A DNA stretch of 64,000 nucleotides from assembly GCF_013409995.1 (NCBI RefSeq), contig NZ_JACCBX010000006.1:246437-310436 (forward strand). The letters run 5' to 3'. Positions 34,373 to 62,522 of this stretch are shown here, piece after piece (the first letter of the stretch is position 1; each line of letters begins with the position of its first letter). The position numbers and the translations under genes were made by a program. The notes beneath the pieces were generated by a model, which was given only the letters and a program-made list of their open reading frames with translations, did no database searches and was not told the origin of the DNA. Origin of the DNA: Neobacillus driksii. Lineage in GTDB: Bacteria > Bacillota > Bacilli > Bacillales > Cytobacillaceae.

Positions 34373-34401
34373 TTGTCACCTAATTATTATCATGTTACTA
34401 T
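34373..34401 (+). promoter_or_regulatory. SigA-type promoter of the PyrR-controlled transcript
   Basis: TTGTCA and TACTAT are separated by 17 bases. Transcription from here would begin a few bases upstream of the first PyrR-binding hairpin. Confidence 0.65.
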
Positions 34402-34416
34402 TAGTTGAAATTAAAT

Positions 34417-34523
34417 CCCTTTAAATCTGGTCCAGAGAGGCCAAAAAGGCGAAGTATACTTCATACATATTTATTATGTCTATGAATGCCTTTTTGTCCT
34501 TTGGATAAAAGGGCATTTTTTTT
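34417..34523 (+). promoter_or_regulatory. PyrR-dependent attenuator (binding hairpin, antiterminator, terminator)
   Basis: The hairpin at 34417-34449 has the PyrR-binding loop GGTCCAGAGAGGCC between CCCTTT and AAAAGG arms, as in Bacillus pyr leaders. Bases 34439-34450 (GGCCAAAAAGGC) can pair at 11 of 12 positions with 34488-34499, which is the 5' arm of a 14-bp terminator at 34486-34516 followed by eight T. When PyrR with UMP holds the first hairpin, the antiterminator cannot form and the terminator wins. This is the established B. subtilis mechanism; its operation here is inferred from sequence. Confidence 0.85.
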
Positions 34524-34532
34524 CACTCAAAT

Positions 34533-34566
34533 CTTTTAATCTGAGTCCTGTGAGGCTCGAAAGGAG
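34533..34566 (+). promoter_or_regulatory. Second PyrR-binding hairpin overlapping the ribosome site
   Basis: CTTTTAATCTGAGTCCTGTGAGGCTCGAAAGGAG contains the PyrR loop GAGTCCTGTGAGGCTC, with CTTT pairing to AAAG. The 3' arm includes the AAGGAG ribosome site (34561-34566) of the transporter whose ATG is at 34577. Bound PyrR would therefore also block translation. No terminator lies between this hairpin and the gene. Confidence 0.75.
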
Positions 34567-34576
34567 AACAACAAGA

Positions 34577-35794
34577 ATGGATTATCGTAAAAAAACAGTA
34601 GTGGCATCAGTAGCAGGTTTAACACTAGAGGGCATGGATATCATGTTTATATCCTTTGCCATGTCGATGATTATTGCGGAGTTTCATATTGATATGACAG
34701 CTGGTGGACTTATTTCTTCTATTACTAATTTAGGAATGCTCGCCGGGGGAGTTATTTTCGGTGTTTTAGCAGATAAATTCGGAAGAGTTAAAGTTTTCAC
34801 CTATACGATATTATTATTTGCAATCGGTACTGCCTTAACCGGGCTCGCACAAAATATTGAACAAGTATACTTATTTCGGTTTATTGCCGGCCTAGGCGCA
34901 GGTGGAGAATACGGGATTGGTATGGCGCTTGTTGCTGAGGCATGGCCAAAGAAGAAACAAGGGCGTGCTTCTTCATACGTTAGTGTCGGTGCTCAATACG
35001 GGGTTATCCTTGCAGCACTTCTTAGTGCGATGATCCTTCCGACTTTGGGATGGAGAGGATTGTTTTTTGTTGGATTGGCCCCAGTAATATTCGCCTTTAT
35101 CGTACGAAAGAAACTAGACGAATCACCTGAATGGCTTGCGTCACAAAAGAAAAAGCAACCAGTTCAGAAGCAAGGGAAATTAAAGCAACTATTTGCTACT
35201 CCTAGAATTACAGTAACCACCATCGCATTAGCAATCATGGCAACCGTTCAAATCGCAGGTTATAATGGTTTAATGATTTGGCTGCCATCCATGCTTCAAC
35301 AATCCCAAGGATTATCGGTTTCAAGTTCGGCGCTTTGGACGATCAGTACCGCTGCAGGAATGATTGCAGGTATGTTAACATTTGGACAATTTATGGATCG
35401 TTTTGGAATGAAACGCTCCTATGGAATCTTCTTAGCAGCTTCCGCTGTAGCGGTCTTCCTTTATTCCTATGCTTCAGGCAGCACAGGACTTCTAATTGGC
35501 GGTGCAATTGTTGGGTTCTTCTCGAATGGAATGTTTGCAGGTTACGGAGCATTAATTAGTAAGTATTATTCAGTAGAAATTCGTAGTACGGCAACAAATA
35601 CGATTTTTAACTTCGGCAGGGCTTTAGGGGGATTATCTCCTATCTTAGTAGGATACATTCTGCAGCATGCAAATGTAACGGTAGCAATGACGTATCTAGC
35701 ATTACTATACTGTATCTCTTTTATAGCAATGATTAGTTTGCAAAAAGGAAACAGTAAACAAGAAGAAATCACTACTTTTTCTGAAGCAGTATAA
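34577..35794 (+). CDS. MFS transporter (aromatic-acid/organic-acid symporter type) under PyrR control
   Basis: This 405-residue transporter has 12 predicted helices, the loop-2 motif GVLADKFGRVKVF, the YLFRFIAGLGAGGEYGIG segment typical of AAHS/sugar-type MFS members, and DRFGMKRSYG after helix 8. An acidic LEGMDIMFISF is in helix 1, as in organic-acid symporters. ATG 34577 follows AAGGAG by 10 bases; the GTG at 34550 lies inside the PyrR hairpin and is rejected. The double PyrR leader says it is made when UMP is scarce, so a pyrimidine or pyrimidine precursor (such as orotate or dihydroorotate) is a likely substrate. That is inference; the family itself transports aromatic and other carboxylic acids. 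Confidence 0.85.
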   Translation: MDYRKKTVVASVAGLTLEGMDIMFISFAMSMIIAEFHIDMTAGGLISSITNLGMLAGGVIFGVLADKFGRVKVFTYTILLFAIGTALTGLAQNIEQVYLFRFIAGLGAGGEYGIGMALVAEAWPKKKQGRASSYVSVGAQYGVILAALLSAMILPTLGWRGLFFVGLAPVIFAFIVRKKLDESPEWLASQKKKQPVQKQGKLKQLFATPRITVTTIALAIMATVQIAGYNGLMIWLPSMLQQSQGLSVSSSALWTISTAAGMIAGMLTFGQFMDRFGMKRSYGIFLAASAVAVFLYSYASGSTGLLIGGAIVGFFSNGMFAGYGALISKYYSVEIRSTATNTIFNFGRALGGLSPILVGYILQHANVTVAMTYLALLYCISFIAMISLQKGNSKQEEITTFSEAV

Positions 35795-38908: not shown

Positions 38909-39033
38909 AATATTTAACTGAAATAGTCAGTATTTTAGGCAGACTCAGGCAATTTTATATTTTTGTAAAAAAATATTTTACTTTTCTTAAAATAGCAACT
39001 ATTATAATATTGAAAATAGTTTCAAATTTCTTA

Positions 39034-39180
39034 ATCGCTGAAACCGTTTAGGCACGGGGGAACCATACTGGATTGTATTCAGTCCAAGGGGTGAATCCTT
39101 TTTAAGGTAGGGCTACTCAGGAGGCCCGAATCCGACAGCTAACCTCGTAAGCGTTTATGAGAAGGAAGGTGGAACTTGTG
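39034..39180 (+). ncRNA. c-di-AMP (ydaO/yuaA) riboswitch
   Basis: The leader holds the ydaO motif landmarks in order: TCGCTGAAACCG, GGGGGAACCA, GGGGTGAATCC, AGGGCTACTCAGGAGGCCC, then GAATCCGACAGCTAACCTCG with GTAAGCG. A TATAAT at 39003-39008 is the probable -10 box. It lies upstream of an amino-acid permease and is followed by a terminator hairpin, so c-di-AMP binding should shut the gene off by termination, as known for this class. Confidence 0.92.
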
Positions 39181-39341: not shown

Positions 39342-40826
39342 ATGTTACCAGAACGCGAAATTGAAAGATTCCAGCAATCTGCAAATCAACAGGAACAGAC
39401 ATTAAAACGTGAGTTAAAATCCAGGCATTTAACCATGATATCAATCGGAGGTGCGATTGGAACCGGATTGTTCCTAAGCAGCGGGGCAGCAATCAGTTCA
39501 GCCGGCCCCGGGGGAGCATTACTAGCGTATGCGATAGTGGGAGCAATGGTTTTTTTTATCATGACTAGTTTAGGAGAAATGGCTGCCTTTATGCCAGTCA
39601 GCGGTTCATTTAGCACGTATGGAACGAAATTTGTGGATCCAGCATTTGGTTTTGCGATTGGGTGGACTTACTGGTTTAGCTGGTCGATGACCATTGCAGC
39701 TGAGCTGGCTGCCTCTACCATGATCATGAAATTCTGGTTTCCAGATAGTCCTTCGTTGGTTTGGAGTGGTTCATTTTTAGCACTTATATTTCTATTAAAC
39801 TATTTATCTGTTAAGGGTTATGGGGAAGGGGAATATTGGTTATCCCTAATTAAAGTATCAGCGATTGTTATTTTTATCGTTGTTGGCTTACTAATGATTT
39901 TCGGAATTATGGGAGGGGAAGCAGTAGGGTTTAAAAACTTTACAGTTGATAAAGCTCCTTTTTCAGGCGGTATTTTAAGTGTTTTTGTTGTTTTTATAGC
40001 AGCAGGTTTTTCTTTCCAAGGAACGGAAATCGTAGGGGTTACAGCGGGAGAAAGTGAGAATCCTGAAAAAAATGTCCCGAAAGCGATTAAAAGTGTTTTT
40101 TGGAGGATTCTAATTTTTTATATTTTGGCAATTGCTGTGATTGGTCTCCTGATTCCTTATACTAATCCGAATTTACAAAATGATAATGTAATGGTAAGTC
40201 CATTTACCCTTATCTTTGAAAAAGCAGGGATTGCCTTTGCAGCTTCACTTATGAATGCGGTTATTTTAACGGCGGTATTATCGGCTGGTAATTCCAGTTT
40301 ATATGCTTCAACTCGCATGTTGTATTCAATGGCGAAAGCAGGACAAGCACCACGGATTTTTGGAAAACTTAACAGCAGGGGGGTTCCGGTTGCAGGTATA
40401 ATTCTAACCTGTGCTATAGGTGCGCTTGCCTTTTTAGCTTCCTTTTTTGGTGATGGCATGGTCTATATTTGGTTAATGAACGCAATCAGTATAACAGGAT
40501 TTATCTTTTGGCTCGGTATTTCTATCAGTCATTATCGGTTCCGTAAAGCCTTTATCGCTCAAGGGTATTCGCTTGACATGTTGCCGTATAAGGCAAAATG
40601 GTTTCCGATTGGGCCAATCTTCGCAATTGCTTGTGGAATTATCGTTATATTAGCTCAAAATTTCCAAGCTTTTCTTGCCGACCAAATTGATTGGGGCGGT
40701 GTGGTAGCGGCATACTTAGGCATACCGTTTTTCCTAAGTTTATATTTTGGCTATAAACTGATAAAGAAAACAAAAGTGGTTAAACTTGAAGAAGTGGAGT
40801 TTGACTTTGATAAGAAATATAATTAA
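39342..40826 (+). CDS. Amino-acid permease, APC superfamily (AapA/YbxG/GABA-permease group)
   Basis: This 494-residue permease has 12 predicted helices and the APC hallmark LKSRHLTMISIGGAIGTGLFLSSG in helix 1. It also has GPGGALLAYAIVGAMVFFIMTSLGEMAAFMP, FSFQGTEIVGVTAGESENPEKNVPKAI and the conserved AGNSSLYASTRMLYSMA. It imports an amino acid with protons; the specificity is not readable. The upstream c-di-AMP riboswitch indicates repression when c-di-AMP is high, fitting control of osmotically active amino acids. A hairpin terminator follows. Confidence 0.92.
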   Translation: MLPEREIERFQQSANQQEQTLKRELKSRHLTMISIGGAIGTGLFLSSGAAISSAGPGGALLAYAIVGAMVFFIMTSLGEMAAFMPVSGSFSTYGTKFVDPAFGFAIGWTYWFSWSMTIAAELAASTMIMKFWFPDSPSLVWSGSFLALIFLLNYLSVKGYGEGEYWLSLIKVSAIVIFIVVGLLMIFGIMGGEAVGFKNFTVDKAPFSGGILSVFVVFIAAGFSFQGTEIVGVTAGESENPEKNVPKAIKSVFWRILIFYILAIAVIGLLIPYTNPNLQNDNVMVSPFTLIFEKAGIAFAASLMNAVILTAVLSAGNSSLYASTRMLYSMAKAGQAPRIFGKLNSRGVPVAGIILTCAIGALAFLASFFGDGMVYIWLMNAISITGFIFWLGISISHYRFRKAFIAQGYSLDMLPYKAKWFPIGPIFAIACGIIVILAQNFQAFLADQIDWGGVVAAYLGIPFFLSLYFGYKLIKKTKVVKLEEVEFDFDKKYN

Positions 40827-61830: not shown

Positions 61831-61943
61831 TATAACAATCAAGTTAAAGGTATGTCTAAGAAATCAAACAACTCATAACTCGTTGCCGTACAAATGAATG
61901 TCACCACCTATTTCCACGTAGGTATCTGGTGTGTACTACAAAT

Positions 61944-62094
61944 TGGCAGGTCTCCTGGCTTATCATCAATGCTCCTCACACCTTCCCGTCAAAAGACAGT
62001 GGTATTGCGTGATTCACTCCGAATTACAGTTGCGGGACAGCGACGGACTTGCACCGTTCTTCCCTATTAAGCCAAGCCTCAGCTTGGCACCAAT
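61944..62094 (-). ncRNA. Cobalamin riboswitch controlling metE
   Basis: Read on the minus strand it has the class landmarks: a GCCAAGCTGAGGCTTGGC stem, AATAGGGAA, GTGCAAGTCC, GCTGTCCCGCAACTGTAA, CCACTG, ACGGGAAGG and the terminal AAGCCAGGAGACCTGCC. It lies about 180 bases before metE and is followed by a terminator, matching repression of the B12-independent enzyme when B12 is present. Confidence 0.95.
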
Positions 62095-62175
62095 TCTTAC
62101 ACGATATGTAATTGCCAATTAATATAACATATAAAAAATCGTTCGTACACAATTTTCTGAGAATTATTTTTGTTA

Positions 62176-62204: not shown

Positions 62205-62267
62205 TGAACCTATACAATATTTAGTAGTGAGTTATAAATTAAAACACTAAATATAGATAATAACCAA

Positions 62268-62417
62268 TATGAATGGTGTCTATATAGACTTAATAGGGAA
62301 TCTGGTGAGAATCCAGAACTGTACCCGCAACTGTAAGTGCTGACGAAATAATGATATCCACTGTCTACGGACGGGAAGGGATTAGAGTAGGTGGAAGCAC
62401 AAGCCAGGAAACCTGCC
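62268..62417 (+). ncRNA. Cobalamin riboswitch controlling ribonucleotide reductase
   Basis: Landmarks in order are AATAGGGAATC, GGTGAGAATCC, ACTGTACCCGCAACTGTAAG, CCACTG, ACGGGAAGG and AAGCCAGGAAACCTGCC. A further hairpin (TATCTTC/GGAAGATA, 62432-62459) and a terminator follow before the gene. B12 binding should end transcription before the reductase. Confidence 0.95.
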
Positions 62418-62522
62418 ATTTCTATTAAGTATTATCTTCTTCGGGAGCTGGGAAGATATAACGAGGGTATCCTACTATTACAGTGAATGAGCCTGTATGA
62501 TAGATTATTCCACGTTATCAAA

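Follow-up and report, generated by a model that had tools for sequence, protein, structure and literature searches.

The leader and its two PyrR-type sites

The window, by which we mean the whole 64,000-nucleotide stretch of Neobacillus driksii DNA analyzed, contains a lone MFS transporter gene preceded by a promoter-like sequence and a leader with two PyrR-type hairpins, sites 1 and 2 (Table 1). Promoter-like sites number 5 against 1.9 in shuffles, which makes the promoter call weak evidence when taken alone.

Table 1. Features of the transporter leader and gene (positions in the window)
Feature	Position	Strand	Evidence
Sigma-A-like promoter, TTGTCA-N17-TACTAT	34373..34401	+	consensus scan and leader alignment
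PyrR site 1, anti-antiterminator hairpin	34416..34452	+	RF00515; −8.6 kcal/mol
Antiterminator, alternative to site 1 and terminator	34438..34500	+	fold of 34432-34500, −19.9 kcal/mol
Intrinsic terminator, 16-pair stem 34484-34518 and U-tract	34484..34523	+	terminator scan, folding
PyrR-type site 2 hairpin	34532..34565	+	RF00515, 35.4 bits (below cut-off); −8.1 kcal/mol; pair counts in 33 distinct sequences
Shine-Dalgarno AAGGAG	34561..34566	+	sequence, type A alignment, accessibility computation
Lone MFS transporter, 405 aa, AAHS-like	34577..35794	+	Pfam MFS_1, 183 bits

Site 1, with the loop TCCAGAGAGGC (34431-34441), lies within a match to the Rfam PyrR model RF00515 (34414-34523, 60.8 bits, gathering score 54, E 6.7e-6 for the window). 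The antiterminator and the terminator stem that follow it (−19.9 and −20.2 kcal/mol) have bases 34484-34500 in common and exclude each other, the arrangement of a PyrR transcription attenuator, and this arrangement is present at site 1 only. Terminator-like sites number 2 in 420 bases, where 0.1 is expected from shuffles. A preliminary description of this DNA had claimed a complete attenuator upstream of the transporter, and the Rfam match over the cut-off, the antiterminator and the 16-pair terminator stem bear this out; the positions that it gave for both PyrR loops are also correct.

Site 2 carries the loop TCCTGTGAGGC (34546-34556). Its lower stem pairs 34532-34537 with 34560-34565 and takes up five of the six AAGGAG bases (34561-34565) ahead of the transporter ATG at 34577, so that the ribosome site does lie in the 3′ arm of a second PyrR-type loop, as had been proposed. 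The RF00515 match here (34529-34650, 35.4 bits) has an E-value of 0.0033 for the 551 bases searched and 0.0092 for the whole genome, in which the next weaker match has an E-value of 0.143 (seven weaker matches, E 0.14-0.74). It scores below the gathering threshold of 54 because only the 5′ hairpin part of the model fits, the terminator half being absent; the loop, the upper stem and the internal bulge agree with the PyrR model in the alignment. The Rfam comparison that the preliminary description had suggested for both hairpins is therefore positive for site 1 and falls short of the cut-off for site 2. The loop motif TCCNGNGAGGY alone was dropped as evidence, since its 26 matches in the 6.5-Mb genome are at chance level (31 for the reversed control). 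The hairpin core combined with AAGGAG and a start codon occurs once in the genome, and the reversed control not at all.

The transporter is related to the aromatic acid/H+ symporter family (AAHS, TIGR00895), of which it is not a member (277.3 bits, curated cut-off 418.55), and among the 120 listed of 2405 matches the named relatives are called MFS transporter, MFS family permease or major facilitator family transporter. Family and structure searches did not reveal its substrate: solved structures gave distant MFS and SLC22/SV2-type matches only and were set aside as a clue, as were the neighboring genes. Since at most 11 of the 80 transporter loci share any one neighbor family, the unit appears to consist of a single gene and its leader. 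The transporter is probably an importer of a pyrimidine-related compound.

The window also contains a c-di-AMP riboswitch (39026-39168, 102.4 bits) upstream of a 494-aa permease-like ORF at 39342, and two back-to-back cobalamin riboswitches on opposite strands (61928-62109 on the − strand, 122.9 bits, and 62257-62434 on the + strand, 118.9 bits).

PyrR and other PyrR elements in the genome

One PyrR over the family cut-off is encoded in the genome (NF003549, 269 bits, cut-off 138). Its gene clusters with a uracil-permease-family gene and pyrB, with a dihydroorotase-like start alongside (assigned by eye). The pyr operon holds three further PyrR elements over the RF00515 cut-off, and the site 2 loop TCCTGTGAGGC recurs as the loop of one of them (C4:89837-89847). 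In the genome of one transporter relative (L052, genome G816), two adjacent RF00515 matches over the cut-off (C22:9764-9876 and C22:9900-9994) lie beside pyrR, apparently as tandem attenuators in the pyr operon.

Conservation of the leader in one clade

A scan of bacterial genomes yielded 111 relatives of the transporter, and the best 80, all from Bacillales, were kept with their upstream DNA. Type A comprises the window and those 35 of the 80 loci in which the second loop is 24-35 bases upstream of the start codon; the other 45 are type B. In type A, which was chosen partly by the very feature counted (site 2 near the start codon), the site 2 loop starts 26-32 bases upstream of the start codon, and the 3′ arm contains AAGGAG in all 36 leaders except L029 (AAGGGG). 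The PyrR-type hairpin contains the Shine-Dalgarno of the next gene in the 36 aligned type A leaders, the window among them. PyrR was found in all 33 genomes searched from the 35 relatives with this layout (L013 and L014 left out).

In a maximum likelihood tree of 81 proteins, a single branch (100/93; 200/200 bootstrap trees) divides the 36 type A rows from all others, and no row on their side is without the site 2 layout. The layout thus changed once within this sample, in a tree that is unrooted and so without direction.

All type A leaders but one (35 of 36) have a first site and, between the two sites, a hairpin with a U-rich tail; in the exception, L043, the contig reaches only 85 bases upstream of the start codon. 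Other type A loci that had apparently lacked a first site proved to have a variant first loop, GAGAGTCC or GAGAGACC. The former occurs in five leaders (L014, L015, L017, L023, L028) with a mismatch in the upper stem and an intact site 2; because of this mismatch, site 1 may be weaker in these five. In L030, extra DNA lies between the first site and the start codon, and both sites remain, about 270 bases apart.

Identity to the window was computed in 34 aligned type A leaders, all but L030 and L043. It is 0.93 for the loop of site 2, 0.89 for its hairpin and 0.89 for the first 60 coding bases, with values of 0.48 for the linker before site 2 and 0.67 for the spacer to the ATG. The promoter hexamers reach 0.89, compared with 0.63 for the spacer between them.

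Covariation support for site 2 is thin. In 33 distinct type A sequences, the share of cells forming standard pairs is 96% for the Shine-Dalgarno stem and 86% for the upper stem. L036 and L038, whose sequences are identical and count as one, sit one column off in the lower stem of this alignment and are in part scored as unpaired there. One upper-stem pair is changed on both sides in 11 of the 33 rows, a count that none of 500 shuffles attained. The weaker measures were reached by more of the shuffles (cells paired, 12/500; covariation score, 21/500; further pair types, 136/500), and the number of site 2 pairs changed on both sides, which is 1, was reached by 393 of 500. Offsetting the partner strand by 1, 2 or 3 columns always reduced four measures: paired cells, cells with changes on both sides, pair types and score. 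The number of pairs changed on both sides, by contrast, stayed as it was with offsets of −1 and −2 and rose to 2 with +1. The Shine-Dalgarno stem varies too little among these sequences for covariation testing.

Accessibility of the ribosome site in a folding model

As a stand-in for PyrR, a bias of +/−4 kcal/mol was placed on each of three upper-stem pairs of site 2 in the 36 type A leaders. The mean probability that the Shine-Dalgarno is unpaired was 0.44 with the hairpin disfavored, 0.26 without bias and 0.18 with the hairpin favored. The difference between the disfavored and favored states (mean 0.25) exceeded 0.1 in 29 of the 36 leaders, was at most 0.1 in 7 and was opposite in none. For the window the corresponding probabilities were 0.60, 0.47 and 0.22. 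Without bias the hairpin forms with a mean probability of 0.58 across the 36 leaders and of 0.26 in the window. When the whole 233-base leader is folded, the Shine-Dalgarno is partly buried regardless.

Because the unbiased value (0.26) is nearer to the closed (0.18) than to the open state (0.44), and the hairpin forms unaided with a probability of 0.58, PyrR may add little to the closure of site 2 in this model. Masking of the Shine-Dalgarno by site 2 is clear in the computed ensembles; its opening is uncertain.

A proposed different second stage in type B relatives

Of the 45 type B loci, 42 have a first site by a relaxed pattern. The same pattern gave a second loop-like site in 44, located 81-135 bases upstream of the start codon, but none in L072, which has other or extra DNA at that place and stands apart in the tree. 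In 41 loci the first site is followed by a hairpin (−10 kcal/mol or lower) that ends in a U-rich tail; in one (L074) the second site is. Folding and complementarity were computed for 40 of the 45 loci (L046, L062, L066, L072 and L080 left out). The PyrR stand-in had little effect there, with 12 of these 40 going up and 2 down (mean 0.04).

In type B leaders, UCCAUUC and the bases following it are complementary to the ribosome-binding region beyond their own shuffles (mean z −2.17; 36 of 40 loci below −1 and none above 1), with control segments at a mean of 0.03 (4 below −1, 5 above 1); as the sequences are related, these counts are not independent. UCCAUUC is also complementary, in most loci of the alignment, to GAAUGGA on the 3′ side of the PyrR hairpin. 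Extension of the latter pairing into the hairpin arm, which would make it exclusive with PyrR, is weak (mean z −0.47; 9 of 40 below −1, 1 above 1; control 0.40). We propose that type B leaders contain a PyrR-controlled sequestor of the ribosome-binding site, in which UCCAUUC and the CCUUC-like bases after it would pair either with GAAUGGA beside the PyrR hairpin or with the ribosome-binding region. Type B leaders would then join control by PyrR to a translational platform of the riboswitch kind.

A conserved type B leader peptide starting at the ATG in GAATGGA was considered and rejected. Among 43 ORFs in the 45 loci, two of them not from ATG, 13 have fewer than 10 codons and 16 reach the transporter start, and the varying frame of the conserved letters also contradicts it.

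A broader reading, which we hold with slightly more doubt than belief, is that this Bacillales transporter family is marked by a two-stage PyrR leader, attenuation followed by control of translation, with two exchangeable second stages: a Shine-Dalgarno inside the PyrR hairpin in one clade, and a sequestor of the ribosome-binding site replacing the second terminator in the others. Types A and B would then offer a natural comparison of how an attenuator read by a protein becomes a translational switch.

PyrR-type hairpins at ribosome sites elsewhere in the phylum

Of 397 genomes searched in the order, 18 contain the combination of hairpin core, AAGGAG and start codon; in the phylum sample it is 42 of 398. 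Each sample includes this Neobacillus driksii genome, and neither gave a match to the reversed pattern. Among the 18 order loci (one per genome), 11 have a terminator-like hairpin within 140 bases and outside a long ORF and were read as ordinary attenuators; one of these attenuator-like loci, L097, also has a 203-aa pyrR-like frame. Four others (L100, L106, L107 and L113) are this transporter with a type A leader, L113 having a weak hairpin (−8.6 kcal/mol) inside the coding sequence. L110 is by eye a relative near type B, L111 looks similar, and L103 falls in neither class.

Another 29 phylum loci, part of all matches, were fetched. A terminator-like hairpin is present in 22 of them, including L140 and L141; L143 and L144 were placed in neither class. 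The idea that all AAGGAG hairpins of the phylum are translational sites was ruled out, as most of those fetched are then followed by a terminator-like hairpin. In the remaining 5 of the 29, the PyrR-type hairpin overlaps the Shine-Dalgarno directly and has no terminator-like hairpin. These precede pyrB-like genes (L117 and L138, called by Pfam; L137 and L139, by eye) and a uracil-permease-family gene (L118), and no second PyrR-type loop lies within 250 bases upstream of any of the five.

In the attenuator-like locus L142, the AAGGAG hairpin is preceded at 94 bases by another PyrR-type loop, a possible tandem. In L140 and L141 (about 1500-1660 on the match strand), the PyrR-type hairpin overlaps the Shine-Dalgarno of a leader ORF of 26-31 aa, inside which lies a terminator-like hairpin (about −11 kcal/mol); the gene downstream resembles dihydroorotase by eye. 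PyrR may there control a leader peptide that is coupled to termination.

Masking of a Shine-Dalgarno by a PyrR-type hairpin is thus not confined to the transporter, and its combination with an upstream attenuator was seen only here among the loci examined. The preliminary description had called the tandem on a lone transporter unusual. This has to be amended, as a second PyrR-type site is the rule in the 80 relatives and the overlap also occurs singly before other genes of the phylum.

A putative two-stage PyrR switch

We infer PyrR binding, a translational effect, an open state and the substrate from these features, and judge with good confidence that the transporter leader is a two-stage PyrR switch combining attenuation with translational masking. 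When UMP and UTP are high, PyrR would hold the site 1 hairpin and block the antiterminator, and most transcripts would end at the terminator. Transcripts that escape would carry site 2, where bound PyrR would stabilize the hairpin that pairs AAGGA, keeping ribosomes from starting. When pyrimidines are short, PyrR would leave, the terminator would not be made and the modest site 2 hairpin could open to ribosomes. Of the transcriptional and translational control claimed in the preliminary description, the computable features mostly fit (the attenuator, the hairpin on the Shine-Dalgarno, the PyrR gene, and the identity of 0.93 for the loop versus 0.48 for the linker); the score of site 2 below the Rfam cut-off and its frequent closure without aid in the model do not. 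Our confidence is not higher because type A is partly defined by the counted feature and because the unbiased ensemble is near the closed state.

Site 2 might instead bind PyrR without any translational role, as a capture site that raises local PyrR or supports an oligomer across the two sites, with all regulation at the terminator. Retention of a second site in 44 of 45 type B loci, although it is 81-135 bases from the start codon, suggests that two sites may matter per se. The 3′ arm of the type A hairpin nevertheless contains the Shine-Dalgarno in 36 of 36 rows, with the loop 26-32 bases before the start, and site 2 is made after the terminator, by reasoning too late to serve attenuation on the same transcript; we consider a pure capture site unlikely. 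The overlap could also be incidental, site 2 being the relic of a second attenuator at which PyrR is irrelevant, or the ribosome site being constitutively weak. PyrR hairpins naturally end in AAAAGG-like arms that easily come to overlap a Shine-Dalgarno, 11 of the 18 order loci look like ordinary attenuators, and the hairpin often forms without PyrR in the model. Against a relic stands the loop, which has no part in ribosome binding and is 0.93 identical in 34 type A leaders next to a linker at 0.48, and we regard this explanation as about equally unlikely.

That the second hairpin is a general stability element and no PyrR site at all is very improbable. Its score below the Rfam cut-off and the chance-level occurrence of the loop motif in the genome would agree with such an element, but the loop, upper stem and internal bulge fit the PyrR model and the identical loop occurs in a PyrR element of the genome's own pyr operon. 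If the two-stage switch is correct, a single RNA-binding protein acts on the expression of a gene twice in succession, from which a steeper and tighter response would be expected than from either step alone, and the Bacillales PyrR regulon gains a translational branch and an uncharacterized transporter, probably for pyrimidine uptake.

Comparison with known systems

Tandem riboswitches with mixed terminator and ribosome-site control are known, in which two sensors act in series on one mRNA. The transporter leader resembles them in its serial sensors, and here a protein would read both RNA sites. PyrR-dependent translational repression was reportedly described in Mycobacterium smegmatis by Fields and Switzer in 2007; that case resembles ours in PyrR acting on translation and differs in coming from another phylum. 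The single PyrR-type hairpins at L117, L118, L137, L138 and L139 have the same geometry of loop and AAGGAG, with the start codon 6-10 bases on, unlike the present leader in having no partner loop upstream.

PyrR attenuation is described in two reviews (PMC7430163, PMC4347634). The pyr operon attenuators of Bacillus subtilis (RF00515), as presented there (PMC7430163), share with site 1 the antiterminator and terminator, the recognition loop and the regulator. They differ in being three attenuators at three places of one operon, whereas here two sites precede a lone transporter and the second is without a terminator. In Streptococcus pneumoniae, the putative uracil transporter gene SP_1286 has an upstream pyrR RNA that includes a putative terminator, and qRT-PCR gave a repression of about 2-fold (PMC10942264), so a PyrR-type leader on a transporter gene, and PyrR control of a transporter, are not new. 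The available sections of that study give one pyrR RNA per gene and do not mention ribosome-site masking, unlike the leader here. RNA-seq of B. methanolicus placed PyrR sites beside a SAM riboswitch, T-box or yybP-ykoY leader in six upstream regions, one of them before an MFS gene (PMC4342826).

Among the papers listed by searches of the open full-text literature, which mostly lacks subscription papers, none describes, as judged from titles and the beginnings of abstracts, two PyrR sites with mixed control or a PyrR switch with a riboswitch-like translational platform. Beyond the known PyrR control of a transporter, what seems to be new is dual-level PyrR control of one lone transporter, likely in its anatomy and predicted in its function, which is conserved over one clade and has a different putative second stage in its relatives.
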